A stretch of DNA of 21,821 bases from IMG/VR virus record IMGVR_UViG_3300038701_003160, positions 1 to 21,821 of that record; one strand, written 5' to 3'. The position numbers and the translations under genes are program-made. Source of the stretch: a virus. Every line of letters starts with the position of its first letter. The first letter of the stretch is position 1. The notes under the pieces were generated by a model. The model saw nothing but the letters and a program-made list of their open reading frames with translations. It was not told the origin of the DNA and did not search any database. Positions 3,261 through 21,821 of the stretch are shown one piece after another.

Positions 3261-3281
3261 TTAACACTCTCCCTTGGTGCA

Positions 3282-3449
3282 TTATTGGAATTTATCTTCT
3301 GTTTTCCTTAAGGCTTCCTTGAGTTTGGCCTTATCTCCACCACAAAGATGTAGAGCCGCGAAACGATAGTGCTTAACACGCTCTTCAGCTGCTCTAAGCT
3401 GACTCTGGACATGGTATAGGTCTTCCCATTTTGGTTGCGGTTCTGGCAT
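3282..3449 (-). CDS. Unknown small helical protein
   Basis: 55 residues starting MPEPQPKWEDLYHV, then a long amphipathic helix (VQSQLRAAEERVKHYRFAAL) with heptad character, so dimerisation by coiled coil is likely. The ATG at 3449 has GAGAGGAG eight to ten bases upstream. An earlier in-frame ATG at 3473 belongs to the TAATG of the repeat and would add eight residues that read through the ribosome site. Function unknown. Confidence 0.65.
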   Translation of the reverse strand: MPEPQPKWEDLYHVQSQLRAAEERVKHYRFAALHLCGGDKAKLKEALRKTEDKFQ

Positions 3450-3472
3450 TTCTAAATCACTCCTCTCGTGCA

Positions 3473-3613
3473 TTACTGAGCTATAGACTCGAATTCGTCG
3501 CGCTCATATGTGTTTTCTTGAATATCTTGTTCCATGTGGTCGGCGCAAATGGCGTTGTCCATTGGATCATAGAATTCTGCGATTTCTTCGCAGTCAATAA
3601 TTTCGCATTTCAT
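3473..3613 (-). CDS. Small putative zinc-binding protein
   Basis: 46 residues: Cys3 and Cys8 (MKCEIIDCEE) and, after YDPMDNAI, Cys23 and His26 (CADH). The C-x4-C...C-x2-H spacing suggests a single small zinc knuckle followed by an acidic helix. The start ATG at 3613 has AAGGG upstream inside the first copy of the start-associated repeat. It is the first gene of the small cassette and lies just downstream (in leftward transcription) of two structured elements. Zinc binding is inferred from spacing only. Confidence 0.62.
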   Translation of the reverse strand: MKCEIIDCEEIAEFYDPMDNAICADHMEQDIQENTYERDEFESIAQ

Positions 3614-3685
3614 ATCGTTACCCTTGTGCATTATTAAAGTTGGGGTACTCGCCGAAGCTTTCCCCCCCCTTTTTTCGCTTATAAC

Positions 3686-3789
3686 GTTGGCGCTTGGGTA
3701 TCTCTCAATTGGCAACCCAAACAAATAGGGGAGAGATAAAACCTATTTGCCTTTAACTGCCTTAATCACAACCCAAATGCAGCGCCAAC
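3686..3789 (-). ncRNA. Candidate structured RNA element with a kissing-loop fold
   Basis: Non-coding stretch with nested perfect complementarity. Outer stem: GTTGGCGC (3686-3693) with GCGCCAAC (3782-3789). Hairpin A: TTGGGT (3694-3699) with ACCCAA (3715-3720). Hairpin B: CAAATAGG (3722-3729) with CCTATTTG (3742-3749). The loop of A contains ATCTCTC (3700-3706) and the loop of B contains GAGAGAT (3731-3737), which are fully complementary, allowing a 7-bp kissing interaction. TTGGGT could instead pair with a second ACCCAA at 3771-3776, giving an alternative state. It lies inside the leftward transcript, upstream of the small-gene cassette. The strand is assumed to be that of the operon. A regulatory RNA or a cis element is inferred. 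Confidence 0.5.
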
Positions 3790-3815
3790 TTGTTGTGGTT
3801 CATGCATAAAATAAA

Positions 3816-3918
3816 TTTGGTGTGGGTGCCGGTGCGATATCCGGTCGTTTGTCGTGGGCTGCGATCTTTAATAACCGGCGTCTCGTAACCGGTCACGACT
3901 GGCAATACCCACACCAAA
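3816..3918 (-). ncRNA. Candidate structured element bounded by a 12-bp perfect inverted repeat
   Basis: TTTGGTGTGGGT (3816-3827) pairs perfectly with ACCCACACCAAA (3907-3918). Further inward, GCC (3828-3830) can pair with GGC (3901-3903), GTCGTG (3851-3856) with CACGAC (3894-3899), and ACCGG (3874-3878) with CCGGT (3889-3893), giving nested stems. It begins five bases after the stop of the leftward gene ending at 3924 and has no credible coding frame. The flanks (ATAAA and GTTTT) show no target duplication, so a MITE is less likely. It could be a stable RNA, a processing site or a transcription attenuator. Confidence 0.45.
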
Positions 3919-3923
3919 GTTTT

Positions 3924-4166
3924 CTACCGTGTATTTGTTGCCAACCTATCCCCAAAAACAACAAACCCCGGTTTTTGTTTGTAATCGGTAACGTAAGTTA
4001 TTGCGTATGTGCCGGTGTACTCGTGCGCTGGATGTTCTGCGCTAAAGTACGTAATGGTATCGCCTGCTTTAAAATCACGGTCGTTGTAGCGAACTTCAAA
4101 CGGCTTGTTGCCAAGCGCTTTTTCCATCGCGAATTTTGGATGTATTTTTAATTTGTGGTGGGTCAT
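3924..4166 (-). CDS. DUF3850-type (ASCH/PUA-like fold) protein
   Basis: 80 residues with the DUF3850 pattern: HHKLKIHPKF at the N-terminus, then PFEVRYNDRDFKAGDTI, a YTG turn and a C-terminal KPGFVVFGD strand. Proteins of this family are small, common in phages and related in fold to ASCH/PUA domains that contact RNA; the exact role is not known. The start overlaps the stop of the upstream gene by four bases (ATGA), so translation is coupled. Family assignment is by recognised sequence pattern; no experiment-like evidence exists in the sequence. Confidence 0.78.
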   Translation of the reverse strand: MTHHKLKIHPKFAMEKALGNKPFEVRYNDRDFKAGDTITYFSAEHPAHEYTGTYAITYVTDYKQKPGFVVFGDRLATNTR

Positions 4167-4336: not shown

Positions 4337-4581
4337 ATTTTCTTTTTCTCCGCCCATTTATAAAGATCACCACCAAGCCATTTAGGTTGCCCGTTTTGCT
4401 TAAATCTAAAAGGGCGAGGAAACCCAACTTTGTGTTGAAGCTGATTAATCAAATAACCTTTGGAACACTTTAAATATTCCGCTGACTCATCAGCCGTTAA
4501 AATAGTTTTTTCAAAAGGTGGCTTCTTTCCAACCTTCTCAGCCACTAGCGTTGCCAAATGATCTAATTCTTGTGCGTTCAC
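4333..4581 (-). CDS. Excisionase-like HTH protein, copy 2 of a tandem pair
   Basis: 82 residues. Residues about 24-75 form a MerR/AlpA-type winged-helix pattern (ILTADESAEYLKCSKGYLINQL, then GFPRPFRF...PKWLGGDLYKWAEKK), typical of small excisionases and AlpA regulators that bend DNA at att sites. It is clearly related to the gene just upstream, so the pair arose by duplication. The start is GTG 4581 with GGAG five bases upstream, and it overlaps the previous stop. It may direct prophage excision or regulate int; which of the two paralogues does which cannot be told. Confidence 0.72.
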   Translation of the reverse strand: MNAQELDHLATLVAEKVGKKPPFEKTILTADESAEYLKCSKGYLINQLQHKVGFPRPFRFKQNGQPKWLGGDLYKWAEKKKI

Positions 4582-4847
4582 ATTGACTCCGTATTAATAG
4601 CGTTTTTTTCTGCCCAAGCTTTAAGGTCTCGAGCGAAATATTTTGGCTTTCCTCGATAAATACGCCCACCTAAATCAAGCTGTTGTGGAAACCCCTTTCG
4701 AGTTCGAATCTCTTTTAAAAAATATGTTGTGCTTACTCTGAAATATTGTGCGGCTTCTTCTGCATTAAATATTCGGTCTTCAAACGGCACCAAAAAAGGC
4801 GCTATTTGGTTTGCTATTTCTTTTGCTTGATCTTGTGTTAGTTGCAT
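4578..4847 (-). CDS. Excisionase-like HTH protein, copy 1 of a tandem pair
   Basis: 89 residues with the same architecture as the next gene: an N-terminal helix (QDQAKEIANQIAPF), then a winged-helix region (IFNAEEAAQYFRVSTTYFLKEI, GFPQQLDL, KPKYFARDLKAWAEKN). Matching residues include FE, A-E-A/S-A, Y/F, GFP and DL-x-x-WAEK. Family knowledge supports site-specific DNA binding. The ATG at 4847 has AAGGGTGG about nine bases upstream. A GC-rich region with alternative hairpins (4867-4902) precedes it in the transcript and may modulate its expression. Confidence 0.72.
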   Translation of the reverse strand: MQLTQDQAKEIANQIAPFLVPFEDRIFNAEEAAQYFRVSTTYFLKEIRTRKGFPQQLDLGGRIYRGKPKYFARDLKAWAEKNAINTESM

Positions 4848-14007: not shown

Positions 14008-14217
14008 ATGTGCGGTTCAACTCCAAGTGTAGAGCGTCGGGATATTCGAGCTGAGAACCTTCAGGCGGATCGAGAAGCCACACGAAAAGCAAATGCTGAA
14101 ATTGCATCACGCAAAGCAGGAAGAGCACGCTCCTCGTTGATTTCAAACATCGGCGGCGCTTCTGGTTTGGGCTCCTCTGCAATCTCTGTGCAACCAGGAA
14201 GAGAAACCCTTGGCTAA
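14008..14217 (+). CDS. Unknown small protein preceding the portal gene
   Basis: 69 residues starting MCGSTPSVERRDIRAENLQA, then a charged helix with alanine repeats and a Gly/Ser-rich tail (SNIGGASGLGSSAIS). GAGAGGCGAG gives a very strong ribosome site. The stop overlaps the TTG start of the portal by eight bases. Short MCG-starting proteins at this position occur in related podoviruses, but the function is not known to me. Confidence 0.66.
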   Translation: MCGSTPSVERRDIRAENLQADREATRKANAEIASRKAGRARSSLISNIGGASGLGSSAISVQPGRETLG

Positions 14218-15820
14218 TCCATTTGGCGCTTCGTCGCTTGCGGTTAAAACCTGTCAAAGACAGGCATCAATGGAATCGCTTCGCACTCAACACGTTGAGG
14301 TTTGGCGAAAGAGCTACCAGTACACCTACCCAATGCGCCAGCATGGCTTTTTCGGTGAGATTGTTACCGCTGAGAATGGACTTGCTGAACTCTCACGATT
14401 AAACGACTCAACAACCACCGAAGCTGTTCGTAACTGGGCCTCACACATGATTTCCGGTATGACGCCGAGCAATGCTTTATGGTTTGGCCTGTACATGAGT
14501 GGGCAAGCTGAGAACGAAAAACGCTTTTTATCTCAAGCGGCTCGAGTCATCTGGGAAAATATTCATAACAGTAATTTTGACTCGTTAGCGTTTGAAGCGA
14601 TGATCGACGCTGCTTGTGCTGGTTGGTTCGTTCTGTACATCGACGAATCCAAAGACGGTGGTTATCACTTCGAACTTTGGCCGATTCCAGAGTGTTACAT
14701 CGCGTCTTCACGACCAGGGCAGCCAGTCGATACGATTTATCGTAAGTTTAAATTGCGCGCCGACCAGGCCATGAATCAGTACGGTGATGAGTGCAGCGAA
14801 AAAATCAAAGAGGCGATTGCAAACAATAAACCGCATGAGAAGTTCGAGTTTGTGCATGCGATTTATCCTCGCGAGTCTGGGGATGCAAATTCAAAGTTTG
14901 CAAAGAATTTACCGTTTGCCAGCGTTCATGTGGAGCTTAAAACCAAAACAACTGTACGCGAGAGTGGATACCATGAATTCCCGTGCTGTGTTCCTCGATA
15001 CATGCTTATTCCTGGCACTCCTTATCCTGTTGGCCCTGTTTACGATGCTCTTCCAGATGCAGCCACGTTAAATAAATTGCGTGAGTTTGAATTTGCAAAT
15101 TTAGATATGGCGGTTGGTGGTTTATGGATCGCTGAAGACGACGGTGTATTAAATCCTAGAGCCATCAAGATTGGCGCGCGCAGAGTTATCGTTGCCAACA
15201 GCGTCGACAGCATGAAACCTTTGCAGTCCTCAACGGATTTCAATGTTGCGTTTATGTCTGAAGATCGCATTCAAGGACAAATAAGAAAAATTCTTTTGGC
15301 AGATGTTTTGCCACCTCTCGAAGGCCAACCACGAACAGCGACTGAAATCAATGAGCGTATGGCATGGCTTCGTCAAATGCTTGGCCCAGTTTACGGCCGA
15401 CTTGAATCAGAATATTTGCAGGTGATGATTCAGCGTTGTTTTGGTCTTGCGCTTCGTGCTGGTGCTTTAGGTAAGCCGCCCCAATCAATGGACGGCCGCA
15501 CATGGCATGTTCGATACGAATCACCACTTGCACGCGCTCAGAAGATGAATGAGGTTGCAGCGATTGACCAGTATGTTTCTGGATTGATGGCGGCTGCACA
15601 AGTTGATCCTTCAGTCCTCGACAACATCGATTTAGACAAGGCTGCCAAGTACCGCGCGGAAGCTTTGGGTGTGCCTGCTGATTTAATTCCAATTGAGAAG
15701 GATATTGCAGAGCGACGTTCGGAGCGTAAGCAAATGCAAGAGCAGGAACAGCAAGAACAGATTGCCAGTGAGCTTCAGCTAGAGGCGGGCAAACAAGCCA
15801 TTCAGAATCCGGCGGCGTAA
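14210..15820 (+). CDS. Portal (head-tail connector) protein, T7-like
   Basis: 536 residues, the usual length of T7-type connector proteins. Recognisable segments are the N-terminal SLRTQHVEVWRKSYQYTYP, MISGMTPSNALWFGL, and the central PGTPYPVGPVYDALPDAATLNKL. A PRTATEINERMAWLRQMLGPVYGR block lies near residue 375-400, and a Gln-rich coiled tail (QMQEQEQQEQIASEL) ends the protein. It forms the dodecameric ring through which DNA is packaged and to which the tail attaches. The start is TTG 14210, with AGGA about 11 bases upstream; it overlaps the upstream gene by eight bases. The portal comes first in the structural module, before scaffold and capsid, as in T7. Confidence 0.92.
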   Translation: MANPFGASSLAVKTCQRQASMESLRTQHVEVWRKSYQYTYPMRQHGFFGEIVTAENGLAELSRLNDSTTTEAVRNWASHMISGMTPSNALWFGLYMSGQAENEKRFLSQAARVIWENIHNSNFDSLAFEAMIDAACAGWFVLYIDESKDGGYHFELWPIPECYIASSRPGQPVDTIYRKFKLRADQAMNQYGDECSEKIKEAIANNKPHEKFEFVHAIYPRESGDANSKFAKNLPFASVHVELKTKTTVRESGYHEFPCCVPRYMLIPGTPYPVGPVYDALPDAATLNKLREFEFANLDMAVGGLWIAEDDGVLNPRAIKIGARRVIVANSVDSMKPLQSSTDFNVAFMSEDRIQGQIRKILLADVLPPLEGQPRTATEINERMAWLRQMLGPVYGRLESEYLQVMIQRCFGLALRAGALGKPPQSMDGRTWHVRYESPLARAQKMNEVAAIDQYVSGLMAAAQVDPSVLDNIDLDKAAKYRAEALGVPADLIPIEKDIAERRSERKQMQEQEQQEQIASELQLEAGKQAIQNPAA

Positions 15821-15822
15821 CA

Positions 15823-16209
15823 GTGTACTCATTTGGAACGCGCTCAAAATCAGTTCTTGCAGGCGTTGATAACAGGCTTCAAGAGATTGCAAACGAAGCT
15901 ATCAATACCACAAAGGTAGACTTCGGCTTTCCGAAAAACGGCGGAATGCGAACCAGGGAAGAGCAGTTTCAGCTATACAAAGACGGCAAATCAAACGCTG
16001 ATGGGTATGTAAACTTATCTCATCACCAAACAGGAAGAGCATTAGATTTCTTTGCGTTTGTGGATGGCAAAGCGAATTGGGACGAATACAACCTAGCAAT
16101 GGTGGCAGCGGCATTCCTACAAGCAGCATCAATGCTTGGTTACAAGTTAACGTGGGGTGGACTTTGGAAAAACTTCCAAGACTATCCACACGTTCAAGTT
16201 GAAGATTGA
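15823..16209 (+). CDS. M15-family endolysin (L-alanyl-D-glutamate or D-Ala peptidase type)
   Basis: 128 residues of the VanY/M15 zinc-peptidase type that cut peptidoglycan stem peptides at lysis. The signature S-x-H-x2-G-x-A-x-D is intact (Ser66, His68, Gly71, Ala73, Asp75), and the C-terminus WGGLWKNFQDYPHVQ supplies Asp120 and His123. The zinc ligands would be His68, Asp75 and His123, with Asp120 as catalytic acid, spaced as in T5 endolysin. It has no signal peptide, so release needs the holin encoded next. The start is GTG 15823, two bases after the portal stop, with a poor ribosome site. Its position between portal and scaffold genes is unusual. Confidence 0.88.
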   Translation: MYSFGTRSKSVLAGVDNRLQEIANEAINTTKVDFGFPKNGGMRTREEQFQLYKDGKSNADGYVNLSHHQTGRALDFFAFVDGKANWDEYNLAMVAAAFLQAASMLGYKLTWGGLWKNFQDYPHVQVED

Positions 16210-16217
16210 GGTGCAGT

Positions 16218-16697
16218 ATGGGTCTTTTATCGAAACTCACAAAGTTTGTTGGTGGTTCGCTATTTTCCGAAATCAAAGAAACGATCAAAGAATATTACCC
16301 GCCAGATTTATCACCCCTTCAAAAGGCTGAACTCGAACAGCGTATTGAGATATTCCTTCACCAAAAAGAACTGGAGTCCAACCGTATTTTGAATGAGGCA
16401 GCTGCTCAGCTTGATAAGCGTATATCGCAACAGGAAGGCACTGCGTCCGATTTAAAAACTATTCCGATCCTTGGCCATCTGTTGATATTTCTTCGCGGTG
16501 CTCAACGTCCTGTGTGGGGATTTGCCACGCTATACATGGATTTCAAATGGCTGTTCGAGGGTGGAACGTTCACCGAACAGCAACAAACCGCAATGATCGT
16601 GATCAACATTCTCGTGCTTGGTTTCTTGTTTGGCGAACGAACGATTAAGAACTTAGAGCCGTTAATCATCAAAGTTTTTGGTAAAACACCAAGCTAG
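16218..16697 (+). CDS. Holin, 3-TM (GTA-like) family
   Basis: 159 residues. An amphipathic N-terminal region is followed by a charged helix (KAELEQRIEIFLHQKELESN). Hydrophobic segments then lie at about 86-98 (IPILGHLLIFLRG), 102-115 (VWGFATLYMDFKWL) and 128-142 (MIVINILVLGFLFG). The RPVWGFATLYMD motif is characteristic of the 3-TM holin family. It would permeabilise the inner membrane and let the M15 endolysin out. I use ATG 16218, which has GAGGTG four to five bases upstream; an earlier in-frame TTG at 16206 lacks this. Confidence 0.85.
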   Translation: MGLLSKLTKFVGGSLFSEIKETIKEYYPPDLSPLQKAELEQRIEIFLHQKELESNRILNEAAAQLDKRISQQEGTASDLKTIPILGHLLIFLRGAQRPVWGFATLYMDFKWLFEGGTFTEQQQTAMIVINILVLGFLFGERTIKNLEPLIIKVFGKTPS

Positions 16698-16705
16698 GAA
16701 ATACG

Positions 16706-16963
16706 ATGTCTACCTATTCCCGCGCAACACCAGAAGATTACAAAATGATTTTCGAAGAGCACCGAGTGGGGCAGAAGGTGTTCGAGGATTTGCTTTTGCG
16801 GTTCGGTAGTTTGCCGGTAAAAGACGGTGGTATTGATCGCATCTTGAATCAATTTGAATACAGCGGACAACGACGAGTTATTGACCATATTGCTTTGCGT
16901 ATCGATCAAGCCAACGGCGTTCGAACACAAGGTGAAATTATTGATTTGGAAAATGAGGACTAA
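16706..16963 (+). CDS. Small podovirus head-module protein, possibly Bbp19-like
   Basis: 85 residues: YSRATPEDYKMIFEEHRVGQ, VFEDLLLRFGSL and RRVIDHIALRIDQANG. The sequence resembles short proteins found between portal and scaffold in podoviruses and prophages (Bbp19-like), whose role is not established. The match is by general pattern only. It sits eight bases after the holin stop and two bases before the scaffold gene start, so it belongs to the head operon. Confidence 0.7.
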   Translation: MSTYSRATPEDYKMIFEEHRVGQKVFEDLLLRFGSLPVKDGGIDRILNQFEYSGQRRVIDHIALRIDQANGVRTQGEIIDLENED

Positions 16964-16965
16964 GT

Positions 16966-17751
16966 ATGTCAGAACCAGCACCAGCCCCTGCAGAACCAGC
17001 TGCTGATCCAGCGCCAGCAGATCCAGCGTCGTCAGCAATTGCCGCGGCAAATGAATTACCCCTTCATGAAGCGATGCCAGAAAAGTTTCGCGTGTTTGAA
17101 GGCGAAGGTGATGCAGCCCAATTTAATTTAGAAGGATCGGCCAAGAAATTACTTGATTCATATTCGGCGCTTGAAAAGCGGAATGGTGCACCAGAGTCGC
17201 CAGATGATTACAAAGTTGAATCCGAAGCTCTTGGTGAAGATTTTAGTTTTGATGAATTCAAGAAGGATGAAACCAATCAGGCGTTTTTGAAAAGCATGCA
17301 CGCGGCTGGATTGAATAACGGCCAAGTGCAAAAAGTTCTTGAGTATGGAATGAAAGAATTGATTCCAGGCTTGATGCAAGGCAATCAATCACTCAATCAA
17401 GAAGACTCTATCAAACACATGCAAACTGAAGTGTGGACGGATCAAAAGCAGTATGCGGAAAACATGAATCTAGCGAATCGTGCATACAGCTCACTCAGCC
17501 CAGACTTGCAAGACAAAATCAACAAAGCCATTGGTAATGACCCAGTTTTTTTAGAAGTGATGTCGATCTTCGGTAAAGAAATGCAAGAAGATACTTCGCC
17601 TAGCGAAACCATCACTGATGACGAAGCGGTTGAAGTTGAAAAGCTTATGATGAGTGAAGCCTATCGCGATTCTAAGCACCCAGAGCACAAGAAAGTTAGC
17701 CAGCAAGTTGCCGTATATTTCCAGAAAAAACACCCGCAGAAATCCGCATAA
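16966..17751 (+). CDS. Capsid assembly (scaffolding) protein
   Basis: 261 residues, acidic, with an Ala/Pro repeat N-terminus (PAPAPAEPAADPAPADPA). Long predicted helices follow (NQAFLKSMHAAGLNNGQVQ; LQDKINKAIGNDPVFLEVM), and the C-terminus is basic and capsid-facing (YRDSKHPEHKKVSQQVAVYF-QKKHPQ). This layout and the position directly before the capsid gene are those of podovirus scaffolding proteins, which guide procapsid assembly and then leave. The ATG follows the previous stop by two bases. Confidence 0.85.
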   Translation: MSEPAPAPAEPAADPAPADPASSAIAAANELPLHEAMPEKFRVFEGEGDAAQFNLEGSAKKLLDSYSALEKRNGAPESPDDYKVESEALGEDFSFDEFKKDETNQAFLKSMHAAGLNNGQVQKVLEYGMKELIPGLMQGNQSLNQEDSIKHMQTEVWTDQKQYAENMNLANRAYSSLSPDLQDKINKAIGNDPVFLEVMSIFGKEMQEDTSPSETITDDEAVEVEKLMMSEAYRDSKHPEHKKVSQQVAVYFQKKHPQKSA

Positions 17752-17965
17752 CGACCCGCCACCATAGCTGCAAGGACGCAGCCCCTCCTAAACAGCCGGG
17801 AATCCGTCACCTTCAGAAGCGAATAATCCAGATCAAAGGCCCAGACTGGTCTGCTGGATAACCTTAGCGACCCGCATGCACCGCCGAAACGCATGACGTA
17901 TCACAGGCCCCTATTGGGACAACCTGAAAAAGGCACAAATCGTTCAGAATATTGAGGACATGCAA
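17752..17965 (+). promoter_or_regulatory. Structured untranslated leader of the capsid gene (element copy B)
   Basis: A 214-bp gap, large for this operon. It holds a hairpin, GCTGC (17767-17771) with GCAGC (17778-17782). Element copy B follows: AGCCGGGAATCCGT at 17794-17807, six bases, CAGAA 17814-17818, AGACTGG 17843-17849. A second hairpin is TCCAG with CTGGA around 17827-17858, containing an inner CAGA/TCTG stem. The leader ends with GAGG (17954-17957) before the capsid start. No sigma70 promoter or T-run terminator is evident. A late promoter, processing site or stabilising 5' leader is inferred. Confidence 0.45.
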
Positions 17966-18829
17966 ATGCCTAGTTCAATTACTGAAGCCTTTGTTCAACA
18001 ATTTGATACGCAAATTCGTTTAGAAGCAGGGCAAAAAGAATCTCGTTTGATGAGCGCAGTTACCGATCGCGGAACAATAACTGGCGAATCGTTCACTGCA
18101 AACATGTTGGACGATGACGGTTCGTTACTGGATCAAAACTCTGTTCGTCACGGCGACACAGTCTGGTCTGACATCACTCACTTAACACCTCTCGCGACAA
18201 TGCTTGATTACTACAAAGCATATCCAGTTGATCGCGCGGATGAGCCTAAGTTATTGGCCAATCCAAGCGGTGCTTACATGGACATGCTAGTGCGTAATCG
18301 TAATCGTCGTTGCGACAAGATTATTTATAACGCCGCTCGTGGTACGCAAACTTTGAAAGATGGTTCTTCAGAAGCATTACCATCTGGACAAAAGATTGCT
18401 CACGGTTCATCTGGCATGACCAAATCTAAAATCATCGAAACGAAGAAAATCTTCCGCGCAAACGAAGTTGATGAGCATGAAGGCGAAGAGTTATTCATGA
18501 CGTTCGACTCCAAGACTTTGGAAGACATTCTTGCAGACACAACGCTTACAAGCGCTGATTACATGGCTGTGAAAATGCTTCAAAGCGGTGATCTTTCTGG
18601 CAACTGGATGGGCTTCAAGTGGATTCCATACGAGAACATCTACAACGACGGTTCGACGTACTACAACATCGCTTGGGCTAAATCTGGTATCCAGTTTGGT
18701 TCTGGCTTTGTTGAAGGTAACGCTCAACGTCGTGCAGATAAAAAAGACACGTTGCAAGTATCAATGGCAGCTTCTTACGGTGCACTTCGTACCGAAGCGA
18801 AGCGAGTTGTTGAAATTGCGTTCCAGTAA
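17966..18829 (+). CDS. Major capsid protein
   Basis: 287 residues of the podovirus/prophage HK97-like capsid type (start MPSSITEAFVQQFDTQIRL; SRLMSAVTDRGTITGESF; LLANPSGAYMDMLV; MTFDSKTLEDIL). It comes right after the scaffold gene and before a small beta-rich protein. I prefer ATG 17966, eight bases after GAGG, over ATG 17960, which is only two bases from it. There is no propeptide and no internal deletion visible. It forms the icosahedral shell. Confidence 0.9.
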   Translation: MPSSITEAFVQQFDTQIRLEAGQKESRLMSAVTDRGTITGESFTANMLDDDGSLLDQNSVRHGDTVWSDITHLTPLATMLDYYKAYPVDRADEPKLLANPSGAYMDMLVRNRNRRCDKIIYNAARGTQTLKDGSSEALPSGQKIAHGSSGMTKSKIIETKKIFRANEVDEHEGEELFMTFDSKTLEDILADTTLTSADYMAVKMLQSGDLSGNWMGFKWIPYENIYNDGSTYYNIAWAKSGIQFGSGFVEGNAQRRADKKDTLQVSMAASYGALRTEAKRVVEIAFQ

Positions 18830-18871
18830 TCGCGGTTTGGCTTAACTAAACCCTAATTGAGGATTTAAACA

Positions 18872-19348
18872 ATGGCTGAAATAGTTTCTTTAGAAGCCGC
18901 CAAAGTCGCAGCAAACTCGAAGATGACAAATGATGAGGCGCTTGGCCGCTTAAAAATCATTACAATCACTTCGCCTGCAACTGCAGCTTGGGCGCAAAAC
19001 GACACGATCGCATCGCCTGTAGATTTGCCAGTCGGTTCGCGCATTGTTGATTGTTGGGTTCACCACGAAGCAATGGGCACTTCTGTAACCATGGACATCG
19101 GTTTGCGCGCAGCTGAGAGCGTTGACGCTGCGCAAACTGTTATTGACGTTGACGGTATTGCAGACGGCATTGATGTAGCTTCTGCTGGCCAGTCTCATGC
19201 AGTAAATGGTGAGTATGTAAATGTAACTGCAACGACGCCTATCAAGCGCACGACGCAAGTTTCAAACGTTTACGCTTCATTGCTTTCTGCAAACCCAACT
19301 GATGATCAGCAGTTCCGCATCGACGTTGTAGTTGCTCTTCCAGGTTAA
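18872..19348 (+). CDS. Capsid-associated beta-rich protein, possible decoration protein
   Basis: 158 residues, rich in Val, Ala, Thr and short beta segments (TVIDVDGIADGIDVASAG; YVNVTATTPIKRTTQV; FRIDVVVALPG). Small beta-rich genes directly after the capsid gene often encode head decoration or stabilisation proteins, which is the best guess here; no specific family is certain. GAGG lies about nine bases before the ATG. Strong hairpins follow its stop. Confidence 0.72.
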   Translation: MAEIVSLEAAKVAANSKMTNDEALGRLKIITITSPATAAWAQNDTIASPVDLPVGSRIVDCWVHHEAMGTSVTMDIGLRAAESVDAAQTVIDVDGIADGIDVASAGQSHAVNGEYVNVTATTPIKRTTQVSNVYASLLSANPTDDQQFRIDVVVALPG

Positions 19349-19360
19349 TTGCTCGTTTAC

Positions 19361-19403
19361 GCGGGCTTACCCGATTAAAGCCCGCCCTTGTGGCGGGTTT
19401 TTT
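19361..19403 (+). terminator. Terminator with an overlapping alternative hairpin at the head-tail junction
   Basis: Terminator: CCCGCC (19381-19386), five-base loop, GGCGGG (19392-19397), six T (19398-19403). A competing hairpin pairs GCGGGCTT (19361-19368) with AAGCCCGC (19378-19385) and shares 19381-19385 with the terminator stem. Only one can form, so termination may be partial. It lies between capsid and tail tubular A genes, the same place as the T7 terminator T-phi. Confidence 0.82.
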
Positions 19404-19418
19404 ATTTAAGGAATTCAA

Positions 19419-20039
19419 ATGGCTTCAGATGTTTCGATTTGTTCCAACGCTCTTCAAATGCTTGGAGGCAATCCAATCAATTCATTCAGTGAGGCCGCAC
19501 AAACAAGCGGACTAGATTCTGCGCGTTTGTGTTCAAATCTTTGGCCCACCGTTCGAGATGCCATTCTTCGTTCGCACACTTGGGGTTGTGCCACGACACG
19601 CGTTTCATTGTCTCCAGAAGCAGCCACACCGGCCTTTGGTTATACTTATCGCTACATATTGCCTTCTAATTGGCTTCGAAATGTGGAAATAAACGGTGTT
19701 GTTTCCGATGAGGTGGACTACAGAACAGAAACGGTAGGTGACGGGAACGGAAGCAAGCGGTTATTAATTAATGAAACAACATTAAAACTTGTTTATATCT
19801 GGAAGAACACTGACACCGAGAGTTGGGACTCAATGCTCGTGGCGGCTGCAGAGTTAGCAATGGCTGTGCGTATGGCCTACGCGGTTACACAAAGCACCTC
19901 CTTAAAACAGCAGCTTGAAAACGAATTGGCTCGCTACTTGGCTCAAGCAAGATCTGTTGATGGTCAGGACGAAAGCCCATCCCAATTAGGTAGTCTTGAA
20001 ATTCTCGGTGCGCGTCGATCACTTTCGAGAAATTACTAG
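19419..20039 (+). CDS. Tail tubular protein A (T7 gp11-like)
   Basis: 206 residues with the typical pattern SDVSICSNALQMLGGNPINS, LWPTVRDAILRSHTW, YILPSNWLRN and a C-terminal LARYLAQARSVDGQDES. It forms the adaptor ring under the portal in T7-like phages. The length agrees with the family (about 200). AAGGA lies six bases before the ATG, right after the T run of the terminator, so transcription must read through. Confidence 0.9.
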   Translation: MASDVSICSNALQMLGGNPINSFSEAAQTSGLDSARLCSNLWPTVRDAILRSHTWGCATTRVSLSPEAATPAFGYTYRYILPSNWLRNVEINGVVSDEVDYRTETVGDGNGSKRLLINETTLKLVYIWKNTDTESWDSMLVAAAELAMAVRMAYAVTQSTSLKQQLENELARYLAQARSVDGQDESPSQLGSLEILGARRSLSRNY

Positions 20040-20041
20040 CT

Positions 20042-21821
20042 ATGAGTAATGCCAATCTCGTTCAAACAAACTTCACGGCCGGCGAAATATCTCCAAAGCT
20101 ATTTGGTCGGTACGATGTAGAGCGTTATAAAAACGCCGTTGCGGAACTTCGCAATTTTTTGCCTCTTATTCAAGGCGGAATTAAATCAACGCCTACGCGT
20201 CGCTACAATGCTAGCGCAAAGAATTCTGATAAAACTTGTCGCCTAATTAGGTTTGAATTCTCAAGCACTGAAGCAAACATTTTGGAGTTTGGCGAAAACT
20301 ACATTCGATTTTTTAATCAAGACCGCACGCAAGTTATGGATGGCGGCAGTCCATATGAGATTACTTCTGTTTATTCGGAAAGCGAACTATTTGAAATCGA
20401 ATATGTTGGCGGCGCAGATACTATTTTCTTGTTCCACCAAGATCACCCTGTGCAACGCTTACGACGCTTTGCCAATGATAACTGGGTGATTGAAGATGCT
20501 CCTTTTGATCCTCAACCATTTTTTGAACAAGGCTTCAAGCCATCTGAAACGCTCACCTTAAGCACTGCAACTGTAGGAAGTGGCAGAACATTCACTGCAG
20601 GTGGTTCGGCTTTCCTTGAGGCCGACGTTGGTCGCAGAATTACATACTTAGGCGGTGTCGCTTTAATTACCGGCTATACAAGTGCAACAGTTGTGACATG
20701 CACTATCGAAAGCGCGTTCAGCAGCACAAGTATTGCAGCAAGCGCATGGACTATTACGGGAACGCCTCAAGCAGTTTGCACTCCTTCAGCAAATGGAACG
20801 GTCGGTGAAGAGATTACCCTAGAGCTTTCTACTGGAAAGGTTTATGGTTCAGAAATATCAATAAGTTCGGCATCTTGGTCTTCCAGCACCACAAGATATA
20901 CCACAGCGACAAACCACGGTTATTCAATTGGCGACATCGTGCGTCTTCGCGGCAACGTTCCGCTAGTTCATAACGGCACCTACGAAATAGATAATGTTCC
21001 CTTAACCAATCAAATTGAGGTTACATCGGCCGATCCCGGCACACTCACAACGGAAGGGACGGTTCAAGAGGTTACCGCGTCGGTTAGCACAAACGGTTGG
21101 CGTTCGGGTGATATTGGTTCATTTGTAAAAATAAACGGTGGGTTAGTAGAGATCACCGCATACACTAATGCTACTTCAGTCACTGGCATCGTTAAGCAGG
21201 CAATGACATCTGACGCAGAATCTCAAATGGGAGCCTGGACGCTTAATCAAGAAATATGGAGCGCTTCAAACGGTTATCCAAGATGTGGAACGTTCTTCCA
21301 GCAAAGTTTAATTGTAGGTGGGTCTCCTACATTCCCGCACTCCGTTGCAAAATCAAGAGTCGGCGAGTATTTAAATTTTGAACTAGGTGTGCTCGATGAC
21401 GATGCTTTTCTATATACGCTCGATGTGGATGAATACGATCCAATTCTTCATTTAAACAAAGTAAAAAATCAGTTGCTTGTACTAACGTCCGGAAGCGAAT
21501 TCACGCTTACCGGTGGCGTTGAAGCTCCGATGACGCCAACGAATGTCCAAGTGACTAACCCAAGCGATTACGGATGTAACACCGTTCGACCTGTTCGCGT
21601 TGAGAGTGAACTTGTTTTTGTAAATAGAACAGGTTTAAAGCTGCGAGGCCTTGGGTACCAATTAACTCAAGACAGCTTTGATTCTCCAGACCTTACAAAA
21701 CTTTCCGACCACATTACTGAAAGTGGGATAAAAGATCTCGCTTACCAGCAAGAGCCTGAATCCATCGTGTGGGCCGTGCTGAACAATGGAAACATGGTGA
21801 CCCTTTGTATCGACCGCAATT
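20042..21821 (+). CDS. Tail tubular protein B-like nozzle protein (partial, runs off the window)
   Basis: The frame is open from ATG 20042 to the window end (593 residues, no stop). It begins MSNANLVQTNFTAGEISPKL, then FGRYDVERYKNAVAELRNFL and LIQGGIKSTPTRRY, the recognised start of podovirus tail-nozzle proteins. The middle is rich in beta segments and Ser/Thr/Gly, consistent with the beta-propeller-like nozzle. Near residue 410-450 the FFQQSLIVGGSPTFP segment is also typical. It should extend to about 700-800 residues. It begins two bases after the gene for tail tubular A. Confidence 0.88.
   Translation, partial: MSNANLVQTNFTAGEISPKLFGRYDVERYKNAVAELRNFLPLIQGGIKSTPTRRYNASAKNSDKTCRLIRFEFSSTEANILEFGENYIRFFNQDRTQVMDGGSPYEITSVYSESELFEIEYVGGADTIFLFHQDHPVQRLRRFANDNWVIEDAPFDPQPFFEQGFKPSETLTLSTATVGSGRTFTAGGSAFLEADVGRRITYLGGVALITGYTSATVVTCTIESAFSSTSIAASAWTITGTPQAVCTPSANGTVGEEITLELSTGKVYGSEISISSASWSSSTTRYTTATNHGYSIGDIVRLRGNVPLVHNGTYEIDNVPLTNQIEVTSADPGTLTTEGTVQEVTASVSTNGWRSGDIGSFVKINGGLVEITAYTNATSVTGIVKQAMTSDAESQMGAWTLNQEIWSASNGYPRCGTFFQQSLIVGGSPTFPHSVAKSRVGEYLNFELGVLDDDAFLYTLDVDEYDPILHLNKVKNQLLVLTSGSEFTLTGGVEAPMTPTNVQVTNPSDYGCNTVRPVRVESELVFVNRTGLKLRGLGYQLTQDSFDSPDLTKLSDHITESGIKDLAYQQEPESIVWAVLNNGNMVTLCIDRN

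Follow-up and report, generated by a model that had tools for sequence, protein, structure and literature searches.

Methylophilales-1 (Rfam RF03011) is one of many RNAs that were found by comparative genomics and have no known function. Other small RNAs with which a structured phage RNA can be compared are the type III toxin-antitoxin RNAs, namely the ToxI pseudoknots and the abiF RNA RF03085 (PMC12373285), and AgvB, an anti-sRNA of prophage Sp5 that imitates the mRNA targets of GcvB (review PMC12197685). Here, these RNAs are compared with a 104-nt element of the viral record IMGVR_UViG_3300038701_003160, whose whole analysed stretch of 21,821 nt is referred to as the window.

Methylophilales-1 was detected in 63 of 100 Methylophilaceae genomes, usually with one copy each, and one of these genomes, G068, scores 24.7 bits, which is no better than chance. 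Outside this family of bacteria, nothing above chance was found in a sample of the class (369 genomes, 368 of them other genomes) and a sample of the order (399 genomes, about 390 others). Pattern and model searches located about a dozen loci in genome contigs and yielded a collection of 26 copies from Methylophilaceae and two phage-borne copies. An alignment of 27 sequences (A6; the 26 bacterial copies and the phage copy L002, with the window left out) supports the helices P1 (8 bp), P2 (5 bp), and P4 (4 bp). A fourth supported helix is a 4-bp pseudoknot, in which the P4 loop pairs with the strand located one letter 5' of the 3' arm of P1 (P1'). In this alignment 98.9% of the cells pair, and 14 of 21 pairs show changes on both sides; neither value is reached in any of 500 shuffles, and both are destroyed by sliding the partners. 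All 27 sequences keep the pseudoknot paired, three of its four pairs show compensatory changes, and its variants include CCUA/UAGG, CUUA/UAAG, CCCA/UGGG, CUCA/UGAG, CUCC/GGAG, CCUC/GAGG, and CCCC/GGGG. The structure line printed by Rfam for RF03011 is without this covarying pseudoknot, which is thus an addition to the family structure.

In the bacterial family, almost no variation is seen at the unpaired junction letters, whereas the helices including the pseudoknot vary freely. This combination is characteristic of RNAs recognized by a protein or a small molecule and not of antisense pairing. In three copies (L080, L083, and L091), GUGA with CCGAU or CUGAU, as found in the other copies, is replaced by GAGA with CCGAA or CUGAA, and this joint change represents a covarying, non-canonical contact across the junction. 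L075 harbors a second, partly degenerate copy (4576-4666, 31 bits) at a distance of 1.8 kb from the intact one, and the 3' halves of both copies are almost identical. A -10 box lies 4-7 nt before P1, abutting the RNA, in 22 of the 26 bacterial copies (background 3.5%).

The two phage-borne copies are located in viral records of 25 kb (L002, 85.0 bits) and 51 kb (L099, 64.9 bits). The copy in L002 precedes genes for a terminase and an SU10-type portal protein and is followed by a terminator-like hairpin. The copy in L099, with the pseudoknot CUAA/UUAG, is part of a recombination operon, where it lies between the genes for a DUF2800/PD-(D/E)XK nuclease and an Enc34-type ssDNA-binding protein and on their strand. 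The -10 box of the bacterial copies is missing from L002, L099, and the window element. This suggests that phage transcripts give rise to the phage copies and that the bacterial ones are stand-alone sRNA genes. In L099 (3335-3420, minus strand) and L002 (270-400, plus strand), the 5' arm of P1 also serves as the 3' arm of a long hairpin upstream (CCACACGAACAG/CTGTTCGTGTGG in L099, about 18 bp in L002), and both RNAs could adopt two mutually exclusive folds via this hairpin.

In the window, the leftward genes leave a 286-nt non-coding gap (3638-3923), inside which the element is located. The claim of the earlier note that the element is non-coding holds, save for the only coding candidate across it, an unconvincing TTG-started upstream extension of the ORF at 3473-3637. 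The neighboring genes are encoded on the minus strand, which is also the better-folding strand of the element. Read on this strand from 5' to 3', the features are as follows.

3924-4166, minus strand: upstream neighbor gene, DUF3850 (ASCH-like; PF12961, E 7e-16; PHROG 986), RNA-binding according to phage annotation
3686-3789, minus strand as read here: element segment, 104 nt
3782-3789, minus strand: 5' arm of the outer closing stem P1a, GUUGGCGC, pairing with 3686-3693; perfect 8 bp, present in the minimum-free-energy fold
3777-3781, minus strand: 5-nt bulge UGCAU between P1a and P1b, from sequence and fold
3771-3776, minus strand: 5' arm of the inner closing stem P1b, UUGGGU, pairing with 3694-3699 in the fold; aligns with P1 of Methylophilales-1
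3762-3769, minus strand: conserved junction letters GUGAUUAA (family: GUGAAUAA), from the Rfam alignment and alignments A1 and A4
3758-3761, minus strand: 5' arm of P2, GGCA, pairing with UGCC at 3711-3714 in the fold and the Rfam alignment; P2 covaries in the family
3742-3749, minus strand: hairpin 5' arm CAAAUAGG, pairing with 3722-3729; perfect 8 bp, equivalent to P4
3731-3737, minus strand: AUCUCUC, the pseudoknot strand in the hairpin loop; complementary to 3700-3706 over all 7 nt, at the position of the family's covarying pseudoknot
3722-3729, minus strand: hairpin 3' arm CCUAUUUG, from pairing and fold
3711-3714, minus strand: 3' arm of P2, UGCC, followed by AAUU (3707-3710), from the Rfam alignment
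3700-3706, minus strand: GAGAGAU, the pseudoknot strand in the junction, adjoining the 3' arm of P1b on its 5' side; from complementarity and energies, position as in the family
3694-3699, minus strand: 3' arm of P1b, ACCCAA, from pairing and fold
3686-3693, minus strand: 3' arm of the outer closing stem P1a, GCGCCAAC, from pairing and fold
3473-3637, leftward: next small gene downstream, an ORF with no function assigned

The earlier note had described an outer stem (3686-3693/3782-3789), a hairpin A (3694-3699/3715-3720), a second hairpin (3722-3729/3742-3749), and a kissing-loop pair of ATCTCTC (3700-3706) with GAGAGAT (3731-3737). All of these pairings are present, perfect, and mutually compatible, and the second ACCCAA at 3771-3776, which had been proposed as an alternative partner of TTGGGT and as the basis of a putative switch, was confirmed. 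This motif does pair with TTGGGT, but as its regular partner that closes the inner stem and not as an optional alternative. Hairpin A and the stem 3694-3699/3771-3776 are mutually exclusive, and on the minus strand the fold with the latter stem, in which the 8-bp hairpin 3722-3749 tops P1b and P2, exceeds the two-hairpin fold in stability by about 11 kcal/mol (-37.0 versus -25.5 kcal/mol), the pseudoknot not yet counted. Leaving both complementary 7-mers free costs 2.5 kcal/mol (-37.0 versus -39.5), and the duplex of the two 7-mers alone amounts to -7.9 kcal/mol. According to these energies, the 7-mers would form a pseudoknot between loop and junction instead of a kissing loop of two hairpins. 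The evidence best supports the suggestion of a small or structured phage RNA in the leftward transcript; its strand and fold had been misjudged.

The only Rfam match in the segment is Methylophilales-1, on the minus strand and over the full model length. Its 19.3 bits are weak compared with the gathering score of 79.9, so that homology is likely but not proven. The match has an E-value of 0.41 in 501 nt and 0.21 in 251 nt, the best among 4227 families, and is not significant in a scan over the whole window. It is based on P1b, the core GUGAUUAAGGCAGU (GUGAAUAAGGCAGU in the family), and UGCC; P1b, core, and P2 all align in register. The junction of the element, GUGAUUAAGGCAGU ... UGCCAAU, corresponds to the core of the family. 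With a model trained without the window, no place in the window scores higher than the element (15.0 bits, E 0.084), the runner-up reaching 13.4 bits. A model from which P3 had been cut out (R3) gave 13.6 bits, level with a chance match; confidence is moderate because this model did not raise the score. The covariance models used for the element do not score the pseudoknot.

Feature by feature, the closing stem UUGGGU/ACCCAA is followed by one letter, U, and by GUGAUUAA, which differs from the family by one core letter. P2, GGCAG/CUGCC by the junction in the family, is GGCAG/UUGCC in the window with one G-U pair. The 3' junction, GAUAUAGAU in the family and AAUUGAGA in the window, is partly alike, with an invariant G replaced by A; in total, family-invariant letters are changed at two positions (GUGAA to GUGAU and CCG to CCA). 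The predicted complementarity AUCUCUC/GAGAGAU is found at the family's place for the P4-loop pseudoknot, and a single hairpin is located between the P2 arms, the variable hairpin P3 being absent. As the element lies below the cut-off and has neither P3 nor its own promoter, it is not filed as a member of RF03011. The case for relatedness is a combined one, comprising a segment of 104 nt selected beforehand, a match on the operon strand, the register of core, P1b, and P2, and the place of the pseudoknot. As a matter of judgement and not of computation, it is probable that the element shares ancestry with Methylophilales-1, and very probable that it is a functional structured RNA of the minus strand. 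The earlier note could name no known feature for the element, a view that is superseded by the match of junction and topology to Methylophilales-1.

A search of related phages, which the earlier note had proposed as a check, turned up no homologue of the window element. DNA searches of phages and plasmids with the segment gave nothing useful, and an exact 27-base pattern has no match in IMG/VR. In L034 and L035, whose portal proteins have 85% and 79% identity, respectively, head genes are shared, the early region is different, and the element is absent; a copy is likewise absent from seven annotated phages whose portal or early genes are related. Further pattern matches (L003-L010, L031-L033, and L108-L124) are apparently coding sequence or chance. 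The neighbor proteins of the element have no close relatives in IMG/VR. Among 187 Methylophilaceae genomes, the best match to the portal protein of the phage reaches 29% identity, too little for a close relative; of the annotated portals, that of Yersinia phages comes nearest (51% identity). The head genes at 14062-21772 have 71-76% DNA identity to the IMG/VR phages L038 and L040, whose early regions are unrelated to that of the window, indicating strong mosaicism.

Several other identities were rejected. A ribosomal frameshift stimulator is ruled out because the A6G8 run is located 3' of the pseudoknot. This run, C8T6 at 3662-3675 on the plus strand, lies between the element and the next gene and is a possible slippage or sequencing-error site. 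A tRNA-like element is not found in the window by ARAGORN. Regarding a type III toxin-antitoxin RNA, for which an adjacent toxin gene and ToxI repeats or abiF motifs would be characteristic, the neighbors are DUF3850 and unassigned small proteins, and there is no recognized toxin neighbor, no repeat, and no Rfam match to such an RNA.

Two further features of the region were observed. Directly upstream of the element on the minus strand, a second structured stretch (3819-3917; z -2.7 on the minus and -3.2 on the plus strand) has a 9-bp outer repeat GGTGTGGGT/ACCCACACC, an inner repeat GTCGTG/CACGAC, and four CCGG motifs. It has no match in Rfam; pairing of the loop GCCGGT with one ACCGGC that immediately precedes the closing arm is conceivable and would give a topology similar to that of the main element. 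The sequence TAATGCAC is common to three leftward genes before the ribosome-binding site (3278-3285, 3468-3475, and 3626-3633) with a purine-rich stretch (AAGGG/GAGAGGAG) no more than a few bases behind it.

The earlier note considered the element too ordered to be chance. It is unusual, but this wording was too strong: 34 of 200 shuffled windows (17%) contain a perfect hairpin with a stem of 8 bp and a loop whose 7-nt complement lies no more than 60 nt away, and it is to this frequency, and to the missing homologues, that a functionless chance cluster of inverted repeats, or the remnants of one, could appeal. The full architecture with an enclosing 8-bp stem is found in only 2 of 200 shuffled windows and at exactly one place in the real window, the element itself; the minus strand of the segment folds at -39.5 kcal/mol (z -4.6 versus its own shuffles), and the match to the core of a known RNA falls on the operon strand, all of which makes a chance cluster improbable. 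The plus strand also folds well (-33.2 kcal/mol, z -4.1), and inverted repeats serve both strands, as would be expected for an antisense regulatory RNA of the plus strand or a palindromic binding site at the DNA level that uses the two-hairpin kissing-loop fold. The plus-strand fold is the weaker of the two, both the genes and the match to the core lie on the minus strand, and a promoter-like site is absent from both strands between 3200 and 4600, so that such a function is very improbable.

A cis-acting structured element of the leftward mRNA that is unrelated to Methylophilales-1 would have a stable pseudoknotted fold between DUF3850 and the next small gene setting mRNA stability, processing, or translation. 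The position inside the operon, where neither a promoter nor a minus-strand terminator was found around the element, is in agreement with this, and its core match could have arisen by chance, as the best of 4227 families reaches only the E-value of 0.21 given above. Such an element is nonetheless rather unlikely, since core, P1b, P2, and pseudoknot position all fit one family and this family occurs in phage operons. The element is thus reasonably probably a divergent, shortened, and promoterless phage-borne relative of Methylophilales-1 within the leftward transcript that acts as a mimic or replacement of the bacterial RNA. That it is transcribed, descends from a common ancestor with Methylophilales-1, and shares its partner is the most likely interpretation.

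According to this proposal, the element would be carried on the leftward transcript of the phage. Its fold would comprise P1a, the bulge, and P1b as the closing stem, an internal junction of GUGAUUAA and AAUUGAGA, a short P2, and one hairpin. The hairpin loop would pair with the strand beside the closing stem, and the resulting pseudoknot would yield a compact fold displaying the conserved junction. The RNA would presumably be stable and have the same binding partner as the bacterial sRNA, probably a protein, and in this way it may imitate or replace Methylophilales-1 during infection; a decoy role is compatible with this. In general, phages may borrow or imitate RNAs of the Methylophilales-1 type. 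It is a doubtful extension that different phage groups carry promoterless versions of the sRNA in operons to imitate the bacterial RNA or titrate its partner, the window element being an extreme, minimised version with only the core and a strengthened pseudoknot. The occurrence in phage operons provides a handle on Methylophilales-1: the parts kept by the phages (core junction, P2, and pseudoknot) are probably what the partner recognizes, and the phage copies open the way to pull-down and knock-out tests.

The type III toxin-antitoxin RNAs resemble the window element in being small, structured, partly pseudoknotted, and phage-associated, and they bind a protein; they differ from it in toxin neighbor, repeats, and Rfam matches. 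AgvB shares the idea of a phage RNA that acts by mimicry on a bacterial sRNA system, but it imitates the targets of an sRNA, whereas the window element resembles the sRNA itself. The closest resemblance is that to Methylophilales-1, with a strand-specific match to the full model, a single letter and then GUGAnUAAGGCAGU after P1, P2 as GGCA/UGCC, and a hairpin loop that pairs with the strand just 5' of P1', as indicated by covariation in the family and by complementarity in the window. Compared with the family, the window element has no P3 and no promoter of its own, its pseudoknot comprises 7 bp instead of 4, its hairpin is longer (8 bp), an outer stem P1a is added, and it is located in a phage operon. 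The copies in L002 and L099 differ from it by retaining P3, the full core, and the 4-bp pseudoknot; they share with it the phage genome and the absence of a -10 box and, in the case of L099, the position in an operon on the strand of its genes.
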